Notes under the pieces: generated by a model | What the model was told of the DNA's origin: nothing | The model's input: only the letters and a program-made list of their open reading frames with translations | The model's database searches: none | NCBI GenBank assembly: GCA_950295325.1 | Contig: OX485803.1 | Span: 49,615,554-49,679,553, forward strand | Length of the DNA: 64,000 bases | Source of the DNA: Polytrichum commune | Lineage: Eukaryota > Streptophyta > Polytrichopsida > Polytrichales > Polytrichaceae | Direction: 5' to 3' | Program-made: the position numbers and the translations under genes | Shown here: piece after piece, positions 3,842-64,000 of the stretch | Layout: every line of letters starts with the position of its first letter | Position numbering within the stretch: the stretch's first letter is position 1

Positions 3842-4689
3842 AAAATTCTATTGTACCTTGTTCTCCATACCTTGATAATGTATATAACATACAAGTGCAC
3901 CTTATATTTTAACTCACATTGTTTGCTAATTTATGCCAATGAATCCTCTATGTTGCAAGATAATATCTTATGCATTTCTTGGGTTGCATAATGTGTATGA
4001 TATTAAATGATTTTTAGAAGAATTTTTTTTGGGGGGAGGGTGGGGTTGGGCATGAAGTCTTGCAAACTTGAAAGTTATTAGGTTTGTGAATCTCTCTCTC
4101 TCTCTCTAGGGAAACATCCAATGCTACTGAAAATTTACAGCATTGTATAAGTTCACAACAAATTTTCCAAAGTGGGATGTTGAGAGAGGTGAACATTCCT
4201 AGAAAAAGTACCAAAAAATGAATGATTGCCCAATGTTTCTAGTTTTTTGAGGAATCTTTGATCTCGTTGCATCAAACTAACCAAAGAAAGTTGATTGGTG
4301 CAAACCAATTCAAATGCTAATTTATACAATTATATAGTTATATATATTGTCTATATAATTTTAACCCCCCCCTTTGTCATATTCCTCTTTTTCACAACAA
4401 TAATACACTCAAGAATGCACATAAAACATTGGATTATGACCTTTCAAATTTTGTATATACCAAAAGCTTTACCCCTTAACCACAAGACTGTGGTTGCTTA
4501 TGAGGTTGAACCACCCGACCATAGGAGAGAGACAAAAGATCCTCTCTCTCCCCCCCCCCCGAGCTCCCTTTCATGCCAAAACACTACTTTTACTTTTTAT
4601 TTTTCATATACTGAAAGTCTTCTATTCATAGTTCTAAATTCATAGTTTTACTATGAATCTTCTATCTTTTGGCTCAATCACAATCTACT
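3842..4689. other. Non-coding with simple repeats
   Basis: A CT run near 4091-4108, a C tract near 4549-4560 and a G-rich tract near 4030 are the only notable features. Confidence 0.4.
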
Positions 4690-5097
4690 AGTTGGAACTA
4701 TCCAATCCGAACTTGATGCATTCATCTATTCTTCTAGTTGGAACTGTCTATTTCCAACTATATTCAATCAATCATTATTCTAGTTGGAGCTGTCTAATTC
4801 CAATTATATTTATTTATTGAGAGTTGTTTAGCTCCAATGAATAACATTCATTTGTTGGGAGTTGTTTAACTCCAATTCATATCTTCTAGTTGGAGTTGTC
4901 TAACTCCAACATAAAGATCTTCCAAAGGCATGTGTCTAACTCCCAATTGGAGCTATCTAACTCCAATGCAAAGATCTTCAATCAGGAGCTGCCTAACTCC
5001 CCTGCACAATAATTCCTTCATGGGTTGTCTAGCCTTTGTGCACCATTCTCGCTTGGGATGTCTAACTCAATTCTTTCCTTGAAACTGTTTGACTTGA
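4690..5097. repeat. Array of short palindromes around TTGGAGTTGTCTAACTCCAA
   Basis: About ten degenerate units occur. The clearest are at 4736-4759, 4782-4805, 4852-4877, 4888-4910 and 4940-4966. Each is itself a hairpin: TTGGAGTT, four-base loop GTCT, AACTCCAA. Arm changes are often matched on the other side (GGAACT with TTCC, GGAGCT with ACTCC), so the ability to fold seems partly kept as units diverge. Spacing is 20-60 bp of AT-rich DNA. It is not a protein-coding repeat. Confidence 0.7.
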
Positions 5098-6139
5098 ATT
5101 AGCATTTGCTCACATGCTAAGTACAAACAAGATATGATTAGGCATGCTTTCTTTCTTGCATAATCCAACATTAAATATTTTAATCCGGGTACATCACATC
5201 CCCAAGAAGAATGAAAATAATTGCATTTAATAAAATCTTCAAAAATTTCTCATTTGGACTAAAATGTCCTAAATTGTTAATGCAAGGACTTGCCCTCTTA
5301 TTGCCAAATGACACCTGTGTCTGATGTTTGTACCCATTTTAAGGATGTGCCTAAAATTATTGTAGTTTTTGAATATTTTAAACTATGCCTAAGAATGATT
5401 TTCAAAATGATTTCTAGGGACCTTGCTTAGCTGTAAGATGTTAGAGTTCTTAAATGGCCACTAGAAAGACACCTTACTTCACTCATATAGTTTCCGAGAA
5501 AACACCAAGTATCCGGGCCCTAAAAAAATGTGAGTTCAAAATCCTCCGATCTCCAATTATAAAATAACTTTCACATCTATGATATCTATACTAAAGAATA
5601 CACATATTTTGATTGTATACAATGAGATAGTAATCGTAACCGTACATCACAAATATTCAAAGGTGATATTATTATCATAAATCAATATAAATGTTGAAAT
5701 GACAGATCATTATTCTTCAATTAATGTTGTGATAACTAACTGCATGATGATTCACTTACTTCCAGCTATTGTGGTCCAAATTATACTAGTATTGTACCAA
5801 GCACATTGTTCATAACATTACTCAAGGGCCATCTTTTGTTCTCTTTCTATTTGAGAGCAAGCTTACTTGAGAGGAAGCCTCAAGTTCAAATTCAATCTGC
5901 AAATTGAGAGATTCTTGCATCTAGCACTTATATCGAGCCGGCCTCATGAAACAAACTATATCCCATATATACACACACAGTATGCACCACTAAATATTAA
6001 ATTTGAATTCCAACACAAAGTGTGCCTCATTTTTAACTGCATTATAAGAGCATATGTATCTCTAAAGATAGGAACACTCGACCATTGTCTAGTTTCAATG
6101 CCAAGTCCATGATTCGAGGTGCAGTAAACATCAATGATT
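5098..6139. other. AT-rich non-coding stretch, nothing recognised
   Basis: No credible ORF, terminal repeat or RNA gene is seen. Confidence 0.4.
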
Positions 6140-6440
6140 TTGTGTTATGGTGGTGTCAATGATTGCTACGAGTATAACTCACATTAATGTTTAAGAAATC
6201 CTTGAGGTGGAGGTGATCTAGTTTCTTCCATGAGAGATGGAAAGAGTTCTACTAATCAGCAAGAAAAACCTCCTTGATATCATCAAATGCGGATGTTGAT
6301 GTGATTGGATTGTCATGGGTTTCCAATGTGATAGACCCCATGATGCCTTCCACATGATTGTCGATTTGTGCCAAGTATAAAAAAACGAGGCTCCCTTACT
6401 TACCACAAGAGAAAAACAACCTAACCACATAAAAAGAGGC
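6140..6440 (-). pseudogene. Fragment of a LINE-type reverse-transcriptase region
   Basis: The minus strand encodes TIMWKASWGLSHWKPMTIQS, which aligns with TVWKASWSLSHWDAHDN encoded by the longer relic at 53400-54430. The following peptide SWKKLDHLHLKDF continues the match with a frameshift. It is a short decayed piece of the same family and has no open frame of its own. Confidence 0.5.
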
Positions 6441-6739
6441 CCTGCATAAACCTTGAGTGATTGAAAAAAGAAATAAAAATAAGAGGGCGGAAGATATGTG
6501 GAAACATGGTTTCATCACCAAAATTATGTTTCCACATATTTATGGTTTTTAAAAACTAGAATTCAAGTTCAAACAATCAAAGATTAAAATGGATTCACAC
6601 CAGAATTCATGCCAAGATTCAAGCTCGTTCTTACCAAAATTCAAATCAATTCACATCAAGATTAAAAAATGGGTTCATACCGGAATTTAAAATCATTCAA
6701 TCCATGTTCAAGTTTAAAAATTAGAAACTTCCGTATGTG

Positions 6740-8770
6740 ACGGCGTTTGAGGTTTTTGTTGCAACCTGCTTGCATTTGTCACCTCCACTAAAGGATCACT
6801 CGGGTTTCCAGTACATCCATGGCAGCATGTGTCCAGGCTAGTCTAAAGACAAAGTGTTTGTCTTGAAAATGTCAGTTGACCTTCCTAGGAGTGGTGTAGA
6901 TCTAGTGAAATACGTGTAGGCCGGAGGGGATTTGGAGAACTCGTGGATAATGTTTGACCATGTCAAACGCTTGAAAGATTAAACCATTGTGACGTGCCAT
7001 GTGTATGACGACAAATACATTAAGGTGTTGATAAACTCTGTTCTGGAAAAGCTTGAATTCTATCATGGCAGAGAATGGAGTGTCTGTCACATGTGAATTT
7101 CAAAGGTTTCGTGGCGGACAGTGTTTAGGCTAATTGGAATGTGGTGAGGAAGATATATGGAGATGGTGACCCAAGTTTGCCAATGGTGGGTTGTGAGTGC
7201 ACCCTTTTTCCACTCATCGGTGAGCTTGGATAAGGTGATGCAAAATAATATCTTTGTGTCTTTGCATTTCAACATAAGCAACTATGCAAGGATTAATTAC
7301 AAAGACGTGAAAAAATATGAACAAAGCTAAAACTAAGTATCATGTGATTCGTTCACGATGGTTGTTATTAGGAGCAACCATAGAAGAAGACATTCTCGGT
7401 CTCTCCAAGTTGTTGGAGTTTTGGCCCTTTTGTTATTGGCAATGGGATGGTCATATGATTATTGTGAAAGCATGATCACATTCCATTTTGGAATGTCCTT
7501 TATGTATGAGAATCTATAGTATGGATATAATTTACTCTAATTTGTGTATTGTTTATAGGATCCAACTATGAATGAACAAGCAAAAATGCCAACATGTAAC
7601 CTTACAAAGATAATTCATAACAAGTGGCCACAACAATCTAGCAACAAGGTGACTTGCATGTATGGAGCAATAGTCGTCGATTTGATTCATGCCTTCTTGC
7701 ATATTGCAAATTACAAGTCGTGGTTGAAAGGTGGTTTTACTGGTAAAGGCCCTAATTCCACGTCTTTGAAATTGAAGGCTACTGCTAGGTGTGGAGATCC
7801 CAAGCTAGTGGCAAATGCCATGAAATTTTATCCATAGACAGAAGATCTTAACATTAGGGGTTGTGCCTTGAAGGGATCCAAGCTATTTGGGGCCACCAAA
7901 CAAAAACTCGACCTTCCCCCATGAGCTAATTCTGACTCACATCGACCTGACAAAATTTATTATTCCATGCCTTGCCCTAACACACAAGCAACTCGTCAAC
8001 GAATAGAAGAGTTATTGAATTTCACAAACCATGGCATGGCTCATTCCACGTTGATATTGGGGTCTGATGCCATGTTTTCCAATGGCACGTTGCAAGGTTG
8101 CCACCCAACTTTGCCAACAGATGTTGGGCGATGCAAGCCAATACATGGATTTTGTGCAATGCCAAAGTCGGAGATAGCAAACATGACACCTTTGCCCCCA
8201 CGCACAAGGGTATGAAGAAGGAATACCACCCACCAAGAACATGGAGTACAAGTTTGGTTTTGTCATGATGTCATCAAGTGTTGTGTGAGTGGCAACAAGA
8301 AGAAGTATGTGCCGGACTAGTCTATAGTACCCAACATGTGACCAGTGAAGATAGGTACCAATCTCTCAAGGGAGGATGTATTGGCACTCGAAGGCGCCGG
8401 ATTCCAATTGTAGCTGAGGGAGGCACTATCTTCCCATAGGAGGCTTTCTACAATTGCGACACTTCCGATCCCTTGGTCGCATTTCCATGTGCCACCAAAC
8501 CTGGACACACATCCAACTTCCAAATTTGGAAAGAAAATGCATCGCAATCTAGTAGCACCTATGACAAATCACAAAAAACAAATAGGAGAGTGTTGGATTC
8601 ATGGACGGTGAGTATATGGTGGGAGCCACTGCCATTCCCTATCCATAATTCAAGAGCGACCATCAACATTGTCTCCAAAGAGGCATTGCATACCGTGTCA
8701 CGATTGGTGGTATCCCACATTGCACTTGCCCTCACTTCACGAAATATCATCTCATTCTTTGGGAAAGAAA
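6740..8770 (+). pseudogene. Decayed coding relic of an unrecognised repeat family
   Basis: A long plus-strand reading can be followed through several stops and frameshifts. An N-terminal part near 6960-7330 includes VYDDKYIKVLINSVLEKLEF and SLDKVMQNNIFVSLHF. A part near 7568-7840 includes KVTCMYGAIVVDLIHAFL and KGPNSTSLKLKATARCGDP. A C-terminal part near 8470-8770 includes RVLDSWTVSIWW and ALHTVSRLVVSHIALALTS. The continuous but broken coding character suggests a transposon or a repeated host gene that died. I cannot assign a superfamily; a transposase-like fold (MULE or hAT) is only a guess. Confidence 0.45.
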
Positions 8771-17582: not shown

Positions 17583-17797
17583 TACACCATTTATGATATT
17601 TAGTGTCACTTACTATTTGGGATTACACTATGCTATAACTATTTACTATAGATCTAATTTTTATTTACCAAAAAATGAAGACTTGGTTGTTTGGACATTA
17701 TAGAAAATTAACATCATTACGTGGTAAAAAATTACATTAGTAAAAAAAAGTTACATCACTATAAATAAGAAGTGACACTAAGTACCATAAATGGTTC
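17583..17797. mobile_element. F2 MITE, 215 bp
   Basis: The left end reads TACACCATTTATGATATTTA then GTGTCACTTACTATTTGG. The right end is its near inverted complement (AGTGACACTAAGTACCATAA). Core blocks GGACATT and ACGTGGTAAAAAATTACAT are shared with 24734-24954. Confidence 0.75.
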
Positions 17798-20922: not shown

Positions 20923-22279
20923 CCGGAAAGGAAAAGCATTTTAGCGATTTATACATGTAATCTGTGCAGTGTAAATCATGGACCCTCTTTTAAAATCAAA
21001 ATTACAAGGGGGTGACCTCAAATTGACCTAATGGAGGAGGGTGACGTCTATATTTCAAGGACTCAAAACTCAAAATCAGGTCCAAACCCAAGAATCGTCT
21101 CTTCTTGAGCCAAAACTCCATCGTGCTTGAGTTTTGATTTTCTAGTTTCATTTTATGTATCAATAGTTGATAGAACGCAAGAAAAGTAACAAAGAAGGGG
21201 CATTTTGAGAAGGTTCCTTAAAGACTCATGGTTTTGACTCTCACTTTCGCCACTTAATGGATAGCTTCAATAATATTGTAGCCTTGATTCTGGGGCGAAG
21301 TAAGTACATGTGCTTAGTTTAAGTCACAATGGTACGAGGCTCTTGAGCAGCTGTGGTGGAAATAATTTTGTGTGTCAGTGAGGACATGGCTAGATCTGCT
21401 TGTGATGGGGTTGGAGAACAATATTAAGTCATCAGCAGCAGATCATGGCCCTCATCAGTCGAGCGGCACCAAGTCAGTCACTCACCTCAAAAATCATGTC
21501 AAGAGTGAGGGGTGAGTCGTGCCATAAAAGGAACAAGTAAACATGTAAGGTCCTTGAAAATTAAAATCTGCAACACTACTACTACTACTACTACTACTAT
21601 TACTGCTGCTGCTGCTCCAGTACACACGTACCATACCATCTGGATCACATGGACATGGTGGCCTTTATTTGTTTGGAACTCGTGATTTTCTTTGCCATGG
21701 ACGGGGAGAACTGACCACCCCTAAGTAGTACCAAATGAAGCGGCTGAGTTTGAGAAAGAACTGGTTGAAGTTCAAGTCTGCAAGAGAATCACTGATCACT
21801 TCAGAGGCATCTCTGGAATACACCTCCAATCAAGAAAGAAACCCGAAAGATCGCAACATGTACAACCCACGATTAGACTTGGCATACTTGGATTCTGATC
21901 GATTACGCCTGAAAATGAAATCTCCCCAGACACTGTTTCTTCGCTAGGAGTCGTCTTCTCTGTGGTCATCTTTGAATATCAGCTCAAATGGAACTGGTGA
22001 ACGAATTCCGCTAAGCTACCAACTGCCAGGGACCAGTATTGACCCATGTTGGACTGGTGTGATATCAATTCCCAAATTTATTGTTGGTACTCACCAATGG
22101 TAGAAGTTGAACCTTCGAAACCGAGATCAAAATCGTGATGACGCTTTTATTTGCAGTATGCATTTCTTCAGTTTATGCTGTAGGAGGATTGAATGTCATC
22201 TTGGCCCAAATCCCACTGAGTAACTTATAATCTGTCCAAGCATTGATGCTGGTCACCAATATCAACCGATGCTGGGATA
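20923..22279. other. Non-coding stretch with a triplet microsatellite and a possible coding relic
   Basis: An ACT run passes into a GCT run at about 21574-21616. At 21735-21947 a 70-codon plus-strand frame (KRLSLRKNWLKFKS, then EYTSNQERNPKDRNMYN) has a decayed second copy at 59690-59890. This suggests an old gene or repeat fragment, and I recognise no domain. Confidence 0.4.
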
Positions 22280-24590
22280 GTGTATAGGTGGATGCATGGC
22301 ATAGATTCGTAATATCAAGATGATATCAATGAACTACCCAACTGATATCAAAATTGGAGTACCAAACAAATTGATACTTGGTTAGTATCACGAGGAGGCA
22401 TGATTGTTGTATACGCAAGTTATTATTTGGGTCAATATCATTTTGATGCCATATTGATATTAGGATAATTTCACTTAGGTATGGAGGTTCTTGCATGGTG
22501 TGTAGTGTAGATCCAAATGGTATCATAATTAAAAAATATCCGCAAATACCAATATCCTGGCGGTATTTGACAAAATGCAAAAACCTCATTCTGAATATCC
22601 AAGTGGGGTTTAAGAATGTGATACGAATCCAACATTGATATCAACCTAAGATAATGCTAGAATAAATGGCAAATACATTGTACAACTAATTCTAAAAGGT
22701 TGAATTTCCGACTTGGTGTGAAAAGAGTTCTTTCTTCAACAAATCGCAACATTCCACTAGAAGGTCAAACAAGACGATTTCCTTTCGACCTTGTGGAGGG
22801 TAGCAAGTTTGACACAACTTTCATACTAACAATGTGAAAGTATGGTCAGTAAAGTGGACATCGTCAAGTAGGTAATGTGTATGGGCCTTGGGCCTTATGT
22901 GGTCACTCTTCCGTACGTTTGAAATAAAACACCGATTTACGAGTTGTACATGATTTGTGGGTACGATCAATGAATATCAAAATGACATGTATTACAATGG
23001 GATTGGACTATGCACTCAAATACACTAACCATTCTAGGTTTCAATGATAACACGTTTGGGAGAGCCTATGTGATCACTTAAAGAGAACCAAAGTCCCATG
23101 TAATCCTATGTTCTCATGGTCTACCTTCATGTCTCATCAAAGAACAAGAATTCTGGGTGTGGATTTCTAGGCAAGGCATTAGGTCATTACGGGTCGAGCC
23201 TCCCAAGTTGAGCTTGAACCCTCGAGATACACATGAAGGTATAACTGCAGGTCACCAATGCCGCATTACATGCACTTTTCTTAATTAAATAACTAACATA
23301 CTCAGCTGCACCTAATTGTCTAATTAGTGTGGATCCCAATCCTTTTGAAGAACATACACTACTTCTCCATTTGGTAAAGTCACCAAAGATACGCACCTTC
23401 CACACACATAGTTTGAGGACATATATATTTTTGTGAGATGAGCTTTACGATTTGCACCCACATGATGGAGAATCCAGAATACTTTTCCAATCCAAACGAT
23501 TCTCTCACCTGCACTACCTGATTGATTAGACATAAGTTGGGCGAAGTCGAACTGTTTTTGAAGCTGGATTTCTGGTTATTGATAACAGTTGTGATGATTG
23601 ATGGTGCAACTTAAGTTAGTGCTTGTTCAAAGGATGCCAGCAAATCTGACTTACTCTTCAAGAAAGTTTGCCTTGAATGAATTCCTAAAGTGACTAGGGA
23701 AACCAAGATTATATTGCAGCCAAAAATAAGGCATATCACAGGCCTTATGTGGTCACCCTTCTTCATCAGCCACGTGCATCAAAGTGGTATATGGCATCGC
23801 TTGTAGTGAAGAACGAACACTAGAATGGCATGTTCTATGATGAGATTGGACTATATGTTTACGATATAGATGCTATACTAGGTTCACTAAAGATCATTGT
23901 TGGGAGATTCCATATAATCGTTCAAAGAAAGAAAGAATCATGATTGTGGATTCCTGCAAACTTTGCATTTCGTCTTTGATTATGAAACTTGAAATGACAA
24001 CCTTTATGATTTATGATTGCATTACATACATAGATGAAACCATCACCCATCTATCAGATTCTTGCTAGGAAATTGGTGAAAGGTGTGGCTAACCTCACAT
24101 TGTAGGACTTTAAGGGGTTGCAAATAATTTTTGTTGTGGATGGTGTGCATACATAACTCTAGATCACCACCTGGCTGATGTGCAAAACATGAATTTTACA
24201 GAATATTTATGAGACTAGTAGGTTACATCAATGTTTCATGTGATTGACATTAAAGTTAAGGTAAGCATGCCTTATGTGCTCATTCATCTTCACTGGGCGC
24301 CTACGTTTGAGGGGTTGGATGTGGATCTAAATATTAAGAACATACAATAAAAAAAAACACATGTTTCAACAGAGTTTGTATATTGGGTGAAGCCGAGAAT
24401 AAGCTAGTTTTGGAATTATACTATGTTTATTCTCACAACAAAGTATTACATTGACAAATTTAGGCTAAAAAATCAGATGAAACAATATGTTGAAATTATT
24501 GGAACAAAACAGCTGATAGCAGCTAAAAAAATGTTATGCAGATGAAGAATGTCAAGTATTGATAAATTAGTACTTTACATACACAATAAC
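22280..24590. other. Non-coding stretch carrying F1 repeat copies
   Basis: Plus-strand copies of the dispersed repeat F1 lie at about 22880-23150 and 23740-23945, with a weak one near 24250-24345. Key blocks are GATTGGACTAT, ACCATTCTAGG or TACTAGGTTCA, and GGGAGA-CC. ATATCAAT-type repeats occupy 22280-22640. No gene is seen. Confidence 0.45.
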
Positions 24591-59890: not shown

Positions 59891-60805
59891 GAAGGCAGGA
59901 AGGCAGGCCTGCATTAAAGGTACCAAACTGTGTAATAAATCGTGGCAATGAACTCACCATTCCTTTCACACTGTACTACCCTGGCAGGTTAAACACTCAC
60001 ACATGTTGTTATGTGATATTTTTGTGCCACATCAACTTTGTCATGGGTTTCAATCAGTAGTTATGTGACACATGGCGTTATTTTTTACGTCAGAAACATA
60101 TCAATTAATGTCGAATCTACCATGTTAATAGAACAAGAAGTCCCTGTGCAGAAATATAAACAGGTGAAACTGGGTTTGAACCCTCAACCCCTACAGAAAC
60201 ATTCTCACCACCGTTTTGGAGTACCGAGGATGGATCTATCCGAATTCTCCAGGAAACAATCGATCACGAGTTTATTCACATTTGCACTGTTGGCCACGGC
60301 AGAAAATTAGTGCTCAAGTGAAGGTGCAGGGCGCGAAGAAGGCTGTTTCAGTCGATCCTGAATTTTCTTGTTTCATATCTGACAGATACGAAATCATACA
60401 AATTGCAAACTATTTCACCCTCCACTCTCATAACACTATATTCATTAATTAGAGACTTTTAGATGATTTTGAGACTATTTAAGGACGCACATTTCAAATA
60501 AGAACTAGTAATTACGAACTAAAACTCGGAAATGTATAGGGTTGGAAACAATAATAAGACATAAAAGCATGGAATTGAACGAAAATGTGAAGCATACATG
60601 AAAATATTGGCGTATGAAATGAGAAATGGTCATGAATGGAAGGCAAGATACGGATGATGAATGGAAATTGAATTAATTCAATTGGAATGAAATACAAGGA
60701 TAATGGAAAAACCATCAATGTCTTGGAGAACACGAAATAAAATCTAAAGTCATAGATAATATCTATTAGCCTTGAACCTATTTTTAGTTTAGGGAGTCCG
60801 TCCCA
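59891..60805. other. Non-coding stretch, 3' flank of the gene at 60806
   Basis: A GGCAGGAA repeat lies at about 59888-59908. A frame at 60038-60310 has no family match. Base composition rises sharply in GC at about 60800. Confidence 0.35.
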
Positions 60806-61782
60806 CTATTTTTTTGTCGCGGCCATCTCTTTATTTTTGGCAGCCTCCATGGCCCTAAAAATCTCCGGCCCGCGGCTATAACCATTACTGTTGACGGACC
60901 CGGAATATGTGCCGTTCTTCCATATAATATTATCCGGACGCGCTCCCGAATTGTACGAAGTGGTATGGTGAGTGGAATACGATTGCGTTTGGGAGACAGA
61001 TTGTCTCGTGGTTCGCCGGACGGCCAAACAACGATCGGAATCGGAGGATGTGGCCTTGGGTGCCAGCCTATCCAAGGACGACGTCGAGGAGGGATGGGCA
61101 CCCATCGAGCGAGTAGCCACCTGCGAAAGAAAGCAAATTTAGTGGGATTAAATCAAAGGCTTCAACGGAGTGGGGGAAACGACGGCGGTTTGGGATGTAT
61201 GTTCGTAAACATCGCGGCCACAAGGGAATGTAAACATGGGAGACAAGTAAACCAACGGCGGGAAATGTGGTAGGGGAGTAAAAGAAATTGCACCTTGGCT
61301 TTCGGGCCGTTGACGGGGGGATCAATGCAAGGGGGACGAGCAACGTGGGAGGAGTTGGCAGGGGGAGGAGTGGAGGCGGAGGGGAGGGCTTCCTGCGGGG
61401 GGGCTTCCATGCGGAGACGCCGGCTCGGACCGCGACGAGGGACACCGTCCTCCCTTGACGTCGTAGCCAAACGAACGAGAGTTCGTTTCTCTTTGGAGAG
61501 GGGAGAGGGCGAGGGTGCGCGCGTGCGCAAGTGGAGTTTGGGGGGAGGACTATTGACGACGCCGTCTTCGATCCCGACGTCACGGGAGTAATCCATGGCC
61601 GACGCCGCGTCCACCGCCGAGAATTGGTAGAGGGATGGCATTCGGAAGTTCGACGCGTCGCGCGAGGGGGAGGGAGGGGCCGAGCGGGGAATGAAAGGGC
61701 CATCGAGGAGGGGGGCGTCGCAAGGCGGGGCAAACTGTGAACAACAACAACAACAACAACAACAAACACGACCAAAAGGCAT
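60806..61782 (-). CDS. Unrecognised basic Pro/Ser-rich protein, two exons
   Basis: Exon 1 ends at 61294 with AAG|GTGCAA and exon 2 runs 61120-60806 after TTTCGCAG; both junctions are phase 0. From the ATG at 61782 the product is 267 residues, starting MPFGRV and a run of eight cysteines coded by a GTT repeat. A CAG at 61737-61735 could be a splice acceptor, in which case the true start lies upstream or at a later Met, and the Cys run is untranslated. The middle is Pro/Arg-rich and disordered. The end (ARPDNIIWKNGTYSGSVNSN then EIFRAMEAAKNKEM) is less biased and may be a short conserved motif, but I recognise no family. Codons are GC-rich, unlike the genes at 28-50 kb. A weak copy of the ACGAACG palindrome lies in the frame at 61471-61486. 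Confidence 0.5.
61741..61766. repeat. AAC triplet microsatellite
   Basis: An AAC run, GTT on the minus strand. It is either the Cys-coding run or the polypyrimidine side of a splice acceptor of the gene at 60806-61782. Confidence 0.7.
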
Positions 61783-61840
61783 CCAAAAAAGGAATTAGAA
61801 ATGTGATCCACATGGAAACAAACAAATACACGGTGGCAAT

Positions 61841-62608
61841 TCAAATCAATTTATTGATTTTTGCAAGCCGCACGATGCTCTTATATACATTGTCGCGGGG
61901 ACTAAGCGCGGCGTTGCCGATGGGGTTGGACCTAACAAAATCGGGGATGCTCCCGGGGTGGAGCACTAGCATTCTAAGATAAGGTGCTAGCTTATCGACC
62001 AAAAAGGTATCTTTCCTATCGCCGGTCCAAGTGTCGGGGAAGACGACGGTGCCCGGGGGATTGAGGACGCTCTTCGTTGGGCTGTCGTCGACGAGGAGGG
62101 TGTTCTCCGGCGTAGGCCAGTGTCCGTGGGGGACCCCCTCGAGAATGGGGATGCCTTGCCACAACCTGGACCGGAGGACCTTGAGGAACTGTTGTCCCCC
62201 TCCTCGACCGCCGAACTTGGGCACGGGAAACCCCTTCTCGTCAACTAGATCGTCGCACGCATCTTGGCCGAGGACGAGGCATGGTCTCGGGAGGCCACGA
62301 AAGAGGAAGTCGATGATGGCCTCCGTGTTCTCCATGATCATGGAGCTCCAGACGACCACGTGAAAGAGGTCGAGCACCTCTTGAAGGAAGTCCCGCACGC
62401 CTGGACGGGCGCGGACGGCCTTGCGGTTTATCAGAGTGTCGAGCTGGCCGTCGTAGTCCATCTCGTCGGGTTGGCGGAAGGAACGGGTGGGGACCTTGGG
62501 GATGTGTTGGGTGTGACACAACACCCCGTTAAGGTCAAGAACTAGGAAGGGCTTGTGACGGGTCTGAGGCCCACTCGCCGACGGGTTGCGATTTAACTTC
62601 GTGGGGTC
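61841..62608 (-). CDS. FCP1/NLI-interacting-factor-type HAD phosphatase-like exon
   Basis: A 256-codon terminal exon opens at the acceptor AATCACAG|GACCCC (62608) and ends in a stop at 61841. The FCP1 homology (HAD) domain starts with PFLVLDLNGVLCH at about residues 21-33, continues with RPGVRDFLQEVLDLFHVVVW then SSM (motif II Ser), and has NTLLVDDSPTKSVLNPPGT (acidic motif III/IV) and FPDTWTG. The usual DxDx(T/V) nucleophile motif reads DLNGV, so the second Asp, the general acid/base, is Asn. Such N variants occur in plant members of this family, and activity as a protein phosphatase is uncertain. The N-terminal exon is not identified; phase would allow a join to the ORF ending at 63224 (see findings). 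High GC. Confidence 0.75.
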   Translation of the reverse strand, partial: DPTKLNRNPSASGPQTRHKPFLVLDLNGVLCHTQHIPKVPTRSFRQPDEMDYDGQLDTLINRKAVRARPGVRDFLQEVLDLFHVVVWSSMIMENTEAIIDFLFRGLPRPCLVLGQDACDDLVDEKGFPVPKFGGRGGGQQFLKVLRSRLWQGIPILEGVPHGHWPTPENTLLVDDSPTKSVLNPPGTVVFPDTWTGDRKDTFLVDKLAPYLRMLVLHPGSIPDFVRSNPIGNAALSPRDNVYKSIVRLAKINKLI

Positions 62609-62728
62609 CTGTGATTAACAATTTAACTAGTTCAATGATATGGTCCAATAAATAAATTAAAATTGCATTAAGGGAATGACGAGGGAGCGAGGGTTTAGAG
62701 TGCAATGCGAATGCGCTCAGAGGCACAC

Positions 62729-62885
62729 TTCCGAACGCGCGCTCGTGAATGAGGGCTGCGGGTGGCGGCGCGCGTCATTTACGAACGTTCGTTCGTGAGT
62801 GAGATTACAGGCATAATCTACGAACGCTCGTTCGTGAAGGAGGTGGACACTGGGTCGCACACATTTACGAACGAGCGTTCGTGAT
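62729..62885. repeat. Cluster of four ACGAACG-NN-CGTTCGT palindromes
   Basis: Copies at 62729-62749 (diverged), 62778-62799, 62817-62838 and 62864-62885. The three good copies have perfect 7-bp arms around different central pairs (TT, CT, AG), and the flanks approach TTTA/GTGAN. Start spacing is 39-49 bp. Confidence 0.85.
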
Positions 62886-63173
62886 TGAGGAAGGGGCATG
62901 CAAGAGTTTATAGAGACGCCAGACCATTCACAACACAGGGATTGAATAGACGATGCACAAAATTGGGAAAATCCGATGCAGAGATAAACTGCTCATATAT
63001 TAAATCCGTTGAATATTTACAAATGTCTCACGTGATAATCTATCACAATTTCCGTGTCCTACAAAATTGTCCTACAAAACTGGCAGGCCTAGGGTGTCAC
63101 GCAGAAAAGGCTCGCGCGGGCCTCCTGATGCCGCCGGATATGAAGCGCCAATAACAAACGAGGGGGTTAGTTG

Positions 63174-63195
63174 GTTACGAACGCGCGTTCGTAAA
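63174..63195. repeat. ACGAACG-CG-CGTTCGT palindrome
   Basis: Flanked by GTT and AAA, close to a 22-bp palindrome. It lies just beyond the end of the ORF at 63209. Confidence 0.85.
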
Positions 63196-63208
63196 ATGAG
63201 AGGTATTC

Positions 63209-64000
63209 TCAGAGATGAGTTACCTCATCATCGGGGGGAGGGGCAGCGGCGCTGGACCGAGCAGTTCCCTCCTCTTCGATTAACGAACGGGCGTTCGTAA
63301 CCTCCATCGGAGCAGCTGCCTCTGCCTCCATGGCCTCTGGTGCATGGCCAGCCTGGGACGCCTGGGTCTGTTCGATGAGATCCGCTTCGTCTTCGTCCCC
63401 GCCCAGGTCGAGAGTCTCCATGCGGACATCCTCCATCCGCGCAGAAGGATGCTGACAATGCTCAGGGCTCTCCACATCCATGCACGCGATACATGCCACA
63501 TCATTGGGGCTCCCTTGCGTGTCCTCCACAATGAGCATGTCAGTGTGTTCCGCAGTGTCATCGCCCCTCCTAGCAACTACCCTGTCTGCAGTTGAGGGCA
63601 GTCCTACCCTTGATGGGGGAGGGGTGAGGACTGCCGCACCTGAAGATTCACGAACGCGCGTTCGTAAATCCTCGTCCTCTCTTATCGCCGCAGAGACCGC
63701 ATCGTGCGAAGGCGTTGCCGTTGTTGCCAGTTCAGGTGGAAAGGGACTTCCAGCCGGTGTTGGATGCGCTCGGGGGTGGGATGGCCCTGCTTGGTACATT
63801 CCTGGTGAAGAGGACTGTGAGGGGTGTCCTACAGGGGGATAGGGGTAGGGCTGTTGCACCGGAGCAGACATGCTCTGCATGCTTCTCAGCATCTCGAAGA
63901 TGGCGTCTGTCTTTGCGGCGGAATCCCTGAGCTCCTTATCCAGCCTCGCCATTTGTCTGGCGCTCTCCTCCTGCGCTGCCGCCATTTCCTCCTTCATCTT
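63209..64000 (-). CDS. Long ORF of unknown function, open at the window edge
   Basis: At least 263 codons, entering from beyond 64000 and stopping at 63209. The first part in the window is a Gln/Glu/Arg-rich helix likely to coil (EEMAAAQEESARQMARLDKE then LRDSAAKTDAIFEMLRSM). A Pro/Ser/Tyr-rich low-complexity stretch and an acidic, Ala-rich tail follow. A donor-like GAG|GTAACTC at 63224-63221 precedes the stop by four codons, so the reading may be spliced there instead. Two palindrome copies lie in frame and give RTRVR and TNARS. The style resembles poorly conserved plant transposon-associated proteins, but no motif proves it. Confidence 0.45.
   Translation of the reverse strand, partial: KMKEEMAAAQEESARQMARLDKELRDSAAKTDAIFEMLRSMQSMSAPVQQPYPYPPVGHPSQSSSPGMYQAGPSHPRAHPTPAGSPFPPELATTATPSHDAVSAAIREDEDLRTRVRESSGAAVLTPPPSRVGLPSTADRVVARRGDDTAEHTDMLIVEDTQGSPNDVACIACMDVESPEHCQHPSARMEDVRMETLDLGGDEDEADLIEQTQASQAGHAPEAMEAEAAAPMEVTNARSLIEEEGTARSSAAAPPPDDEVTHL
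63280..63301. repeat. ACGAACG-GG-CGTTCGT palindrome inside the ORF
   Basis: Flanked by TTA and AAC. On the minus strand it reads in frame as part of VTNARSL. Confidence 0.85.
63647..63668. repeat. ACGAACG-CG-CGTTCGT palindrome inside the ORF
   Basis: Flanked by TTC and AAA. On the minus strand it reads in frame as LRTRVRE. Confidence 0.85.

Follow-up and report, generated by a model that had tools for sequence, protein, structure and literature searches.

Repeated interrupted palindromes in a large DUF7869-type DNA transposon of Polytrichum commune as candidate family-private operators of an element-encoded regulator

The window analyzed here, a stretch of 64,000 nucleotides from contig OX485803.1 (C1) of the moss Polytrichum commune, ends inside a large DNA transposon with a DUF7869-type transposase, here called E1, and the palindromes of the window belong to this element. 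E1 comprises 16,676 bp, reaches from window position 60432 to C1:49692660, has AACACTATATTC ends and a TCAT duplication, and contains between its ends blocks homologous to copy A, a member of the same family. An earlier note on this DNA had considered an element that runs off the window, and E1 does extend past position 64000; extension of the contig in search of terminal repeats, as proposed there, revealed an inverted copy of AACACTATATTC that ends at 77107 when the numbering of the window is continued (window-scale). The features of the window are:

60428 to 60431, no strand: 4-bp target site duplication TCAT, with the second copy directly past window-scale 77107
60432 to 64000, minus strand for gene 1 and the NIF gene: portion of E1 in the window, from the AACACTATATTC ends and homology to copy A
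60432 to 60460, plus strand: terminal inverted repeat at the NIF-gene end of E1, from comparison of element ends
60835 to 61731, minus strand: third conserved frame, a proline-rich putative gene, 53% identical to copy A (tblastn)
61471 to 61486, no strand: palindrome with 1 mismatch (pattern scan)
61844 to 62620, minus strand: NIF/FCP1-like phosphatase gene (PF03031), from Pfam and homology to copy A
62731 to 62746, no strand: palindrome with 2 mismatches (pattern scan)
62781 to 62796, no strand: exact palindrome in the interval between gene 1 and the NIF gene (pattern scan)
62820 to 62835, no strand: exact palindrome in the same interval (pattern scan)
62867 to 62882, no strand: exact palindrome in the same interval (pattern scan)
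63177 to 63192, no strand: exact palindrome directly 3' of the gene 1 reading frame (pattern scan)
63212 to 64000, minus strand: 3' part of gene 1, encoding an orphan DGQH protein (tblastn to copy A exons)
63283 to 63298, no strand: exact palindrome within the gene 1 reading frame, read as TNARS (scan and ORF)
63650 to 63665, no strand: exact palindrome within the gene 1 reading frame, read as RTRVR (scan and ORF)

The transposase of copy A was recognized by its DUF7869 domain (PF25273; Pfam E = 5.7e-39) and lies on the strand opposite to gene 1 and the NIF gene; besides DUF7869, a Pfam scan of its frames returned only DUF6695 at E = 0.14. The transposase of E1 is 84-94% identical to that of copy A, so that an element with PF25273, terminal inverted repeats and target duplications is documented by Pfam for copy A and by homology for E1. 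A literature search on DUF7869 found no paper. Divergently from the transposase run gene 1, the NIF phosphatase (Pfam E = 2.1e-12 over 61844-62524; 80% identical to copy A) and the proline-rich frame. Gene 1 is an orphan with several exons and the motif FWIIDGQHS; the E1 gene extends to window-scale 67611, and its exon 1 is interrupted by a premature stop. The corresponding frame of copy A hits a stop within an in-frame palindrome at about position 17765, where E1 reads through. Gene 1 gave nothing above the curated cut-offs in Pfam or NCBIfam, no significant match in PHROGs or among PDB sequences, no homologue among plasmids and, for viral contigs, 375 pattern matches of which 0 were confirmed; no recognizable DNA-binding domain was found in Pfam, NCBIfam, PHROGs or PDB sequences. 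Its best Pfam match, under the cut-off, was HAUS-augmin3 (E = 0.001) in a coiled-coil-like exon 3. In every row comparing genes of E1, copy A, L011 and family 3, dN was smaller than dS (saturated in several), which indicates that the genes were under purifying selection.

The termini of this family (family 1), AACACTATATTCG, were obtained from copies A (C2) and B (C3) and from nine further near-identical copies, seven of which are flanked by a 4-bp target duplication, while one lacks it and one has no recognizable end. No target duplication was seen for copy A, and for copy B the left end escaped detection. An element of another family, family 3, has 12-bp ends identical to those of family 1 and GTAT flanking it on both sides. 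Gene 1 and the phosphatase recur across chromosomes, with distances between their starts of 4278, 4255 and 4260 bp for the pairs at C2:1869643, C3:7045056 and C1:2240533, respectively. A first look at the genome gave 945 candidates for gene 1 and 1237 for the NIF phosphatase, and in each case the best 150 were scored, so that copy numbers are rough.

The transposase end of E1 (window-scale 73565-77107) is 88% identical at the DNA level to copy A 5034-8568, and the part from gene 1 to NIF is about 76% identical. Such a difference in closeness to copy A between the two ends of E1 implies that elements recombine, and modules are apparently exchanged among members of the family. Inside E1, at window-scale 71464-71727 (L009 8018-8281), a segment similar to the family's right end lies beside internal sequence. 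Copy B carries an insertion of about 11.4 kb (L016 ~1333 to L017 ~2782; C3:7031746-7043195), whose flanking alignments overlap by 5 bp and which is probably a nested element. Adjoining the right end of copy A there is a minus-strand open frame of 778 aa (copy A coordinates 20979-23312; L015) which, judged by eye, reads like a Copia-type gag-pol polyprotein.

In En/Spm (CACTA) elements, the transposase is of the Transposase_21 type and subterminal repeats, the location of the motif in these elements, are bound by the element's own TnpA. The elements described here resemble En/Spm in that their termini contain CACTA and in that a protein encoded by the element itself, known for En/Spm and predicted here, acts on repeated sites of its own element. 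However, they differ from En/Spm in having AACACTA ends, a 4-bp duplication and exact sites that are not subterminal, and no Transposase_21-type domain was detected by Pfam in the reading frames scanned. Membership in CACTA was considered because of the CACTA in the ends and was dropped in view of the 4-bp duplication, as the consulted part of a report gives 3 bp for CACTA/EnSpm (PMC12730594), and of the lack of a CACTA transposase domain in the frames scanned. A 4-bp duplication would also fit Academ (AcademX), for which target duplications of 3-4 bp are given in the part of the source consulted (PMC10045372); no nuclease domain as in Academ was found by Pfam in the frames scanned.

Six exact ACGAACG-NN-CGTTCGT sites occur in the window, spanning 62781-63665, and with up to two mismatches the total rises to eight, compared to a mean of 0.04 in shuffled sequence, so that the repeated palindrome described in the earlier note is real. 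The diverged copy reported there is present with two mismatches, its start being 62731 and not 62729, and the weaker copy at 61471 was recovered with one mismatch. Both copies said to be in frame (RTRVR and TNARS) indeed lie within a minus-strand ORF at 63209-63997. A similar right flank is common to the four copies at 62731-62882, some copies thus being part of short repeats.

Genome-wide, the exact palindrome is present at 5602 places in 407.8 Mb, compared to 4 for the reversed pattern, and if one mismatch is allowed the numbers are 7937 and 125, respectively. Base composition, named in the earlier note as a possible trivial cause, therefore does not account for these counts. LEAFY domain matches also occur in this genome, in keeping with a host that is a land plant or closely related to one. 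Locations were read for the first 100 of the 5602 exact places, all on C1 below 2.47 Mb, and these fall in five regions. Matches to gene 1 or NIF coincide with four of the regions; in the fifth, L010, the left terminus of the family was recognized together with blocks homologous to copy A. Spacing was the sole basis for assigning four of the 100 places (C1:2286453-2289050).

The information content, calculated from 150 distinct sites with at most 3 mismatches (from five family-1 stretches and excluding copy B as a near-duplicate of A), marked a 24-bp palindrome, ATTTACGAACGNNCGTTCGTAAAT, and was close to zero outside it, which disposes of the notion that all copies are embedded in one longer repeat. 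The suggested tendency to TTT/AAA flanks was confirmed, as among 103 exact sites from the five family-1 stretches (repeated 40-mers removed) 80 have TTT on the left, 75 have AAA on the right and 61 have both. As the 150 sites had been picked by similarity, aligned gene 1 introns provide a fairer test of constraint. There, columns at sites exact in one element were read in another (4 elements for intron 1 and 3 for intron 2, with both directions counted and cells therefore non-independent), and agreement was 459/462 (99%) for arm cells, 40/66 (61%) for centre cells, 177/196 for the TTT/AAA flanks and 932/1576 for other positions. Clearly, the arms of the palindrome are kept while its centre and its surroundings drift, in agreement with the fixed arms and free centre described previously, and a protein binding site would be the likeliest reading of such a pattern. 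No site was gained or lost as a 22-bp unit in the aligned introns, so that a REP-like mobile palindrome found no support there.

Tandem units a few tens of bases long give many of the sites a regular spacing, and one might ask whether the copies are by-products of tandem duplication without any binding function. We find this hardly credible, because sites in differing contexts have only the 24-bp palindrome in common and because arms and centre differ so strongly in the aligned introns; family 3, described below, also speaks against it, as a base change is found there on both arms in 12 of 17 sites.

In family 1, exact sites are located upstream of both divergent genes and in the introns of gene 1. 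The 24 exact sites of copy A are found upstream of the transposase (3.9-4.9 kb from the left end of the element), a short way upstream of gene 1, within each of the two gene 1 introns, and in the terminal part of this gene or immediately behind it. E1 is similarly organized, with 26 exact sites, two of which lie inside the gene 1 reading frame. The first site of intron 1 follows directly after the 5' splice site in all four family-1 elements compared, with AA, AG, TT and TG as centres. The exact sites nearest to the ends are at 2349 and 3808 bp in E1 and at 3862 and 2847 bp in copy A, so that neither element has an exact site less than 2.3 kb from a terminus, and sites with one mismatch occur about 1 kb from the NIF-side terminus (61471 in E1 and 19964 in A). 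Subterminal transposase-binding repeats, the first explanation offered in the earlier note, were dropped in view of these distances.

DUF7869 gave 1491 first-look candidates in the genome, and the best 150, which were scored, form several groups. Three other DUF7869 families carry other palindromes, with the arms ACGGACG, CACGGGTG and GTGRGGCA. The palindrome of family 2 (L038-L040, and L043, which lies left of L038) is CCCACGGGTG-NN-CACCCGTGGG; CACGGGTG occurs at 953 exact places in the genome compared to 0 for the reversed pattern, and L038, L039 and L040 have no ACGAACG site and 7, 6 and 7 CACGGGTG sites, respectively. Family 3 (L041 and L042) has TTTACGGACG-NN-CGTCCGTAAA, and ACGGACG was found at 1394 genome places compared to 1 for the reversed pattern. 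Of the sites in its element, 12 are pure ACGGACG, 2 are pure ACGAACG and 3 combine one arm of each kind. Neither pure ACGGACG nor CACGGGTG sites occur in the five family-1 stretches, which have a single mixed-arm site (in copy A), and the specificity of palindromes for families is therefore strong, but not absolute. Variants with C or T at the A/G arm position are present at 0 and 1 genome places, respectively; for the latter variant, ACGTACG, the reversed pattern occurs at 79 places, showing that palindrome counts can vary for other reasons.

A fourth palindrome, with at least 4 perfect copies and a free centre, had been forecast beforehand, and family 4 bore this out only partly. Arrays of GTGRGGCA-NN-TGCCYCAC (11, 16 and 22 units by a degenerate pattern, which occurs at 432 genome places compared to 0 for its reverse) were present in 3/3 loci and the forecast copy number was reached in 2/3, as perfect GTGAGGCA/TGCCTCAC copies number 6, 4 and 0; the centre was not free, since within a locus perfect copies share one centre. 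The remaining units differ between their arms, and the arrays are 59-bp tandem repeats, which is what a by-product of duplication would look like. L047 has arrays upstream of both the transposase and a divergent gene that contains the motif VDGQHVEHA; those of L048 precede the transposase and the equivalent divergent frame, and for L049 the reading covered the transposase side. In family 3, the gene order is kept and each of the two gene 1 introns contains sites. In family 2, one site comes immediately after the point where the similarity of the first gene 1 frame stops, and another separates two transposase frames in what looks like an intron.

The promoter-like placement of sites is also what one would expect if host transcription factors bound them and the elements had merely captured promoters. 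We regard this as very unlikely, given that four families have four palindromes, that no match with up to two mismatches was found in window positions 1-60431 and that six 10-kb control tiles of the window contained no 7-bp-arm palindrome occurring twice. Instead, the suggestion of a regulator site in the earlier note fits best among its options, if it is extended by a separate version of the site for every transposon family sampled.

The transposase itself might bind the palindromes, as internal transposition enhancers or for autoregulation, and gene 1 would then have another role. In favour of this possibility, all four families have a DUF7869-type transposase, with sites upstream of its gene. 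However, the transposases of families 1 and 3 are 79-86% identical although their palindromes are mostly different, and exact sites are kilobases away from the ends that a transposase must pair, so that we consider this explanation unlikely, though deserving some weight. A divergent gene with a D/N-GQH motif accompanies the transposase in each of the four families. Gene 1 is 31-54% identical between families 1 and 3, the family 2 version shows 27-28% identity (E = 3e-8 and 6e-8; all by tblastn), and in family 4 the partner gene was recognized by its DGQH motif and position only. NIF is present in families 1 and 3 and was not found in those portions of families 2 and 4 that were read. Between families 1 and 3, dN amounted to 0.40 for gene 1 exon 2, 0.31-0.32 for NIF and 0.07-0.14 for the transposase, a rate comparison that is not clean for gene 1 because dS was saturated in many comparisons and elements recombine. 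The faster change of gene 1 is suggestive of co-evolution with the palindrome, of which it is no proof since elements recombine.

On this comparative basis, we somewhat favour the interpretation that the palindromes are family-private operators of an element-encoded dimeric regulator, probably the gene 1 protein, with a VANC-like role in anti-silencing or activation. A dimer of an element-encoded protein would bind the palindromes, and the most likely reader would be the product of gene 1, because each of the four families has a divergent D/N-GQH gene and this gene evolves more rapidly than the transposase. Binding would counteract silencing by the host and/or activate the element in trans, as VANC does on Arabidopsis VANDAL elements, and demethylation might follow binding.

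A derivative element bears on the question of action in trans. L010 (C1:639070-648500) is a deletion derivative with the family-1 left terminus, the right terminus being located beyond the stretch read, and its tblastn matches amount to 49 aa for the transposase and 81 aa for NIF, with none for gene 1. It has 33 exact sites, more than copy A or E1, and the presence of so many sites without a detected gene 1 would fit an action in trans by proteins from full copies. As sites are spread along the element and are numerous in L010, which lacks gene 1 and most of the transposase, the data suggest that access to the DNA of the element matters and not promoter firing alone. If gene 1 encoded instead a repressor that limits copy number and shuts its own element through the palindromes, sites would be expected upstream of both genes, as is the case. 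The surplus of sites in the derivative and the score of 418.9 bits common to 26 of the 150 listed gene 1 matches, which indicates recent amplification, count against a repressor, albeit both are compatible with repression, and we judge it to be quite improbable.

The proposed anti-silencing operators were compared with the VANC proteins of Arabidopsis VANDAL transposons. According to the parts of the reports consulted, VANC accessory proteins contain DUF1985/DUF287 (PMC5735166) and the VANC21 motif is YAGTATTAY, of 9 nt (PMC5735166; PMC10398659). As far as these parts go, both systems are multi-gene DNA transposons with a short motif that is dense in noncoding parts, introns and upstream regions and forms tandem arrays, with a different motif for each family (here not absolutely), and with an accessory protein less conserved than the transposase (PMC5735166; PMC10398659). 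They differ in that, unlike the 9-nt VANC21 motif, the motif here is a long interrupted palindrome, in that the transposase is of the DUF7869 type and no Mutator-type domain was found by Pfam in the transposase frames of copy A, and in that Pfam scans of gene 1 pieces revealed neither DUF1985 nor DUF287. We take the moss elements to be analogous to VANC/VANDAL and, by any test run, not homologous. A literature search on palindromes in moss transposons gave nothing relevant as judged from titles.

Escape from methylation has been discussed for other transposons as well. Fungal DNA transposons carry TET/JBP dioxygenases that are thought to aid it, in the part of the report consulted (PMC12730594), and the elements studied here would be similar in combining a DNA transposon with an extra gene for putative methylation escape, and different in that no dioxygenase domain was found in the frames scanned and specificity apparently resides in DNA sites. 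In noncoding DNA of the five family-1 stretches (motifs masked, noncoding intervals set by hand), the observed/expected ratio of CpG was 0.68-1.00 at less than 100 bp from a site compared to 0.45-0.58 at more than 400 bp, and the direction of this gradient held in all five. Family 3 gave 0.52 near and 0.40 far from sites, family 2 showed no gradient (0.41 near versus 0.44 far), and inclusion of coding DNA left no consistent trend. CpG retention near sites may thus be taken as weak support for anti-silencing. Methylated CpG as a general principle was considered and dropped, because CpG is missing from the palindrome of family 4 and family 2 lacks a gradient. As a separate observation, the DNA methyltransferase domain PF00145 gave 353 candidates in the genome and 123 scored matches, all above the cut-off, for example at C6:31140883-31141131 and C4:33931065-33931313, and several of them fall in open frames that measure exactly 1386 aa although they are on different chromosomes; the genome possibly harbours a mobile element carrying a cytosine methyltransferase.

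Bacterial ParB-parS systems use 16-bp palindromes in clusters, and the D/N-GQH motif of gene 1 recalls what we take to be DGQHR/ParB-like proteins. Weak profile matches of gene 1 to GmrSD_N (E = 0.058) and DUF6551 (E = 0.067), none significant, and to TIGR03187 (E = 0.44, aligned off the D/N-GQH motif) concern domains that are presumably ParB-like. By this analogy, a D/N-GQH protein with a ParB-like fold might load at family-private palindromes, spread and shield the element from silencing, with families arising through co-change of loader and palindrome; we offer this only as a long shot. A transposon class with a ParB-like loader had no match in the literature searched, as far as the sources consulted in part extend.

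If the favoured interpretation is true, transposon-encoded sequence-specific control would not be peculiar to the VANDAL elements of Arabidopsis and would have had a separate origin in an unrelated class of transposons. The genome of P. commune would provide four candidate pairs of protein and palindrome. For two of them, ACGAACG and ACGGACG, which are one base per arm apart and belong to elements with closely similar transposases, a change of specificity would be directly testable. Finally, a role would be proposed for the DUF7869 transposase-like domain and for its partner gene, both of which are without a described function in the libraries searched.
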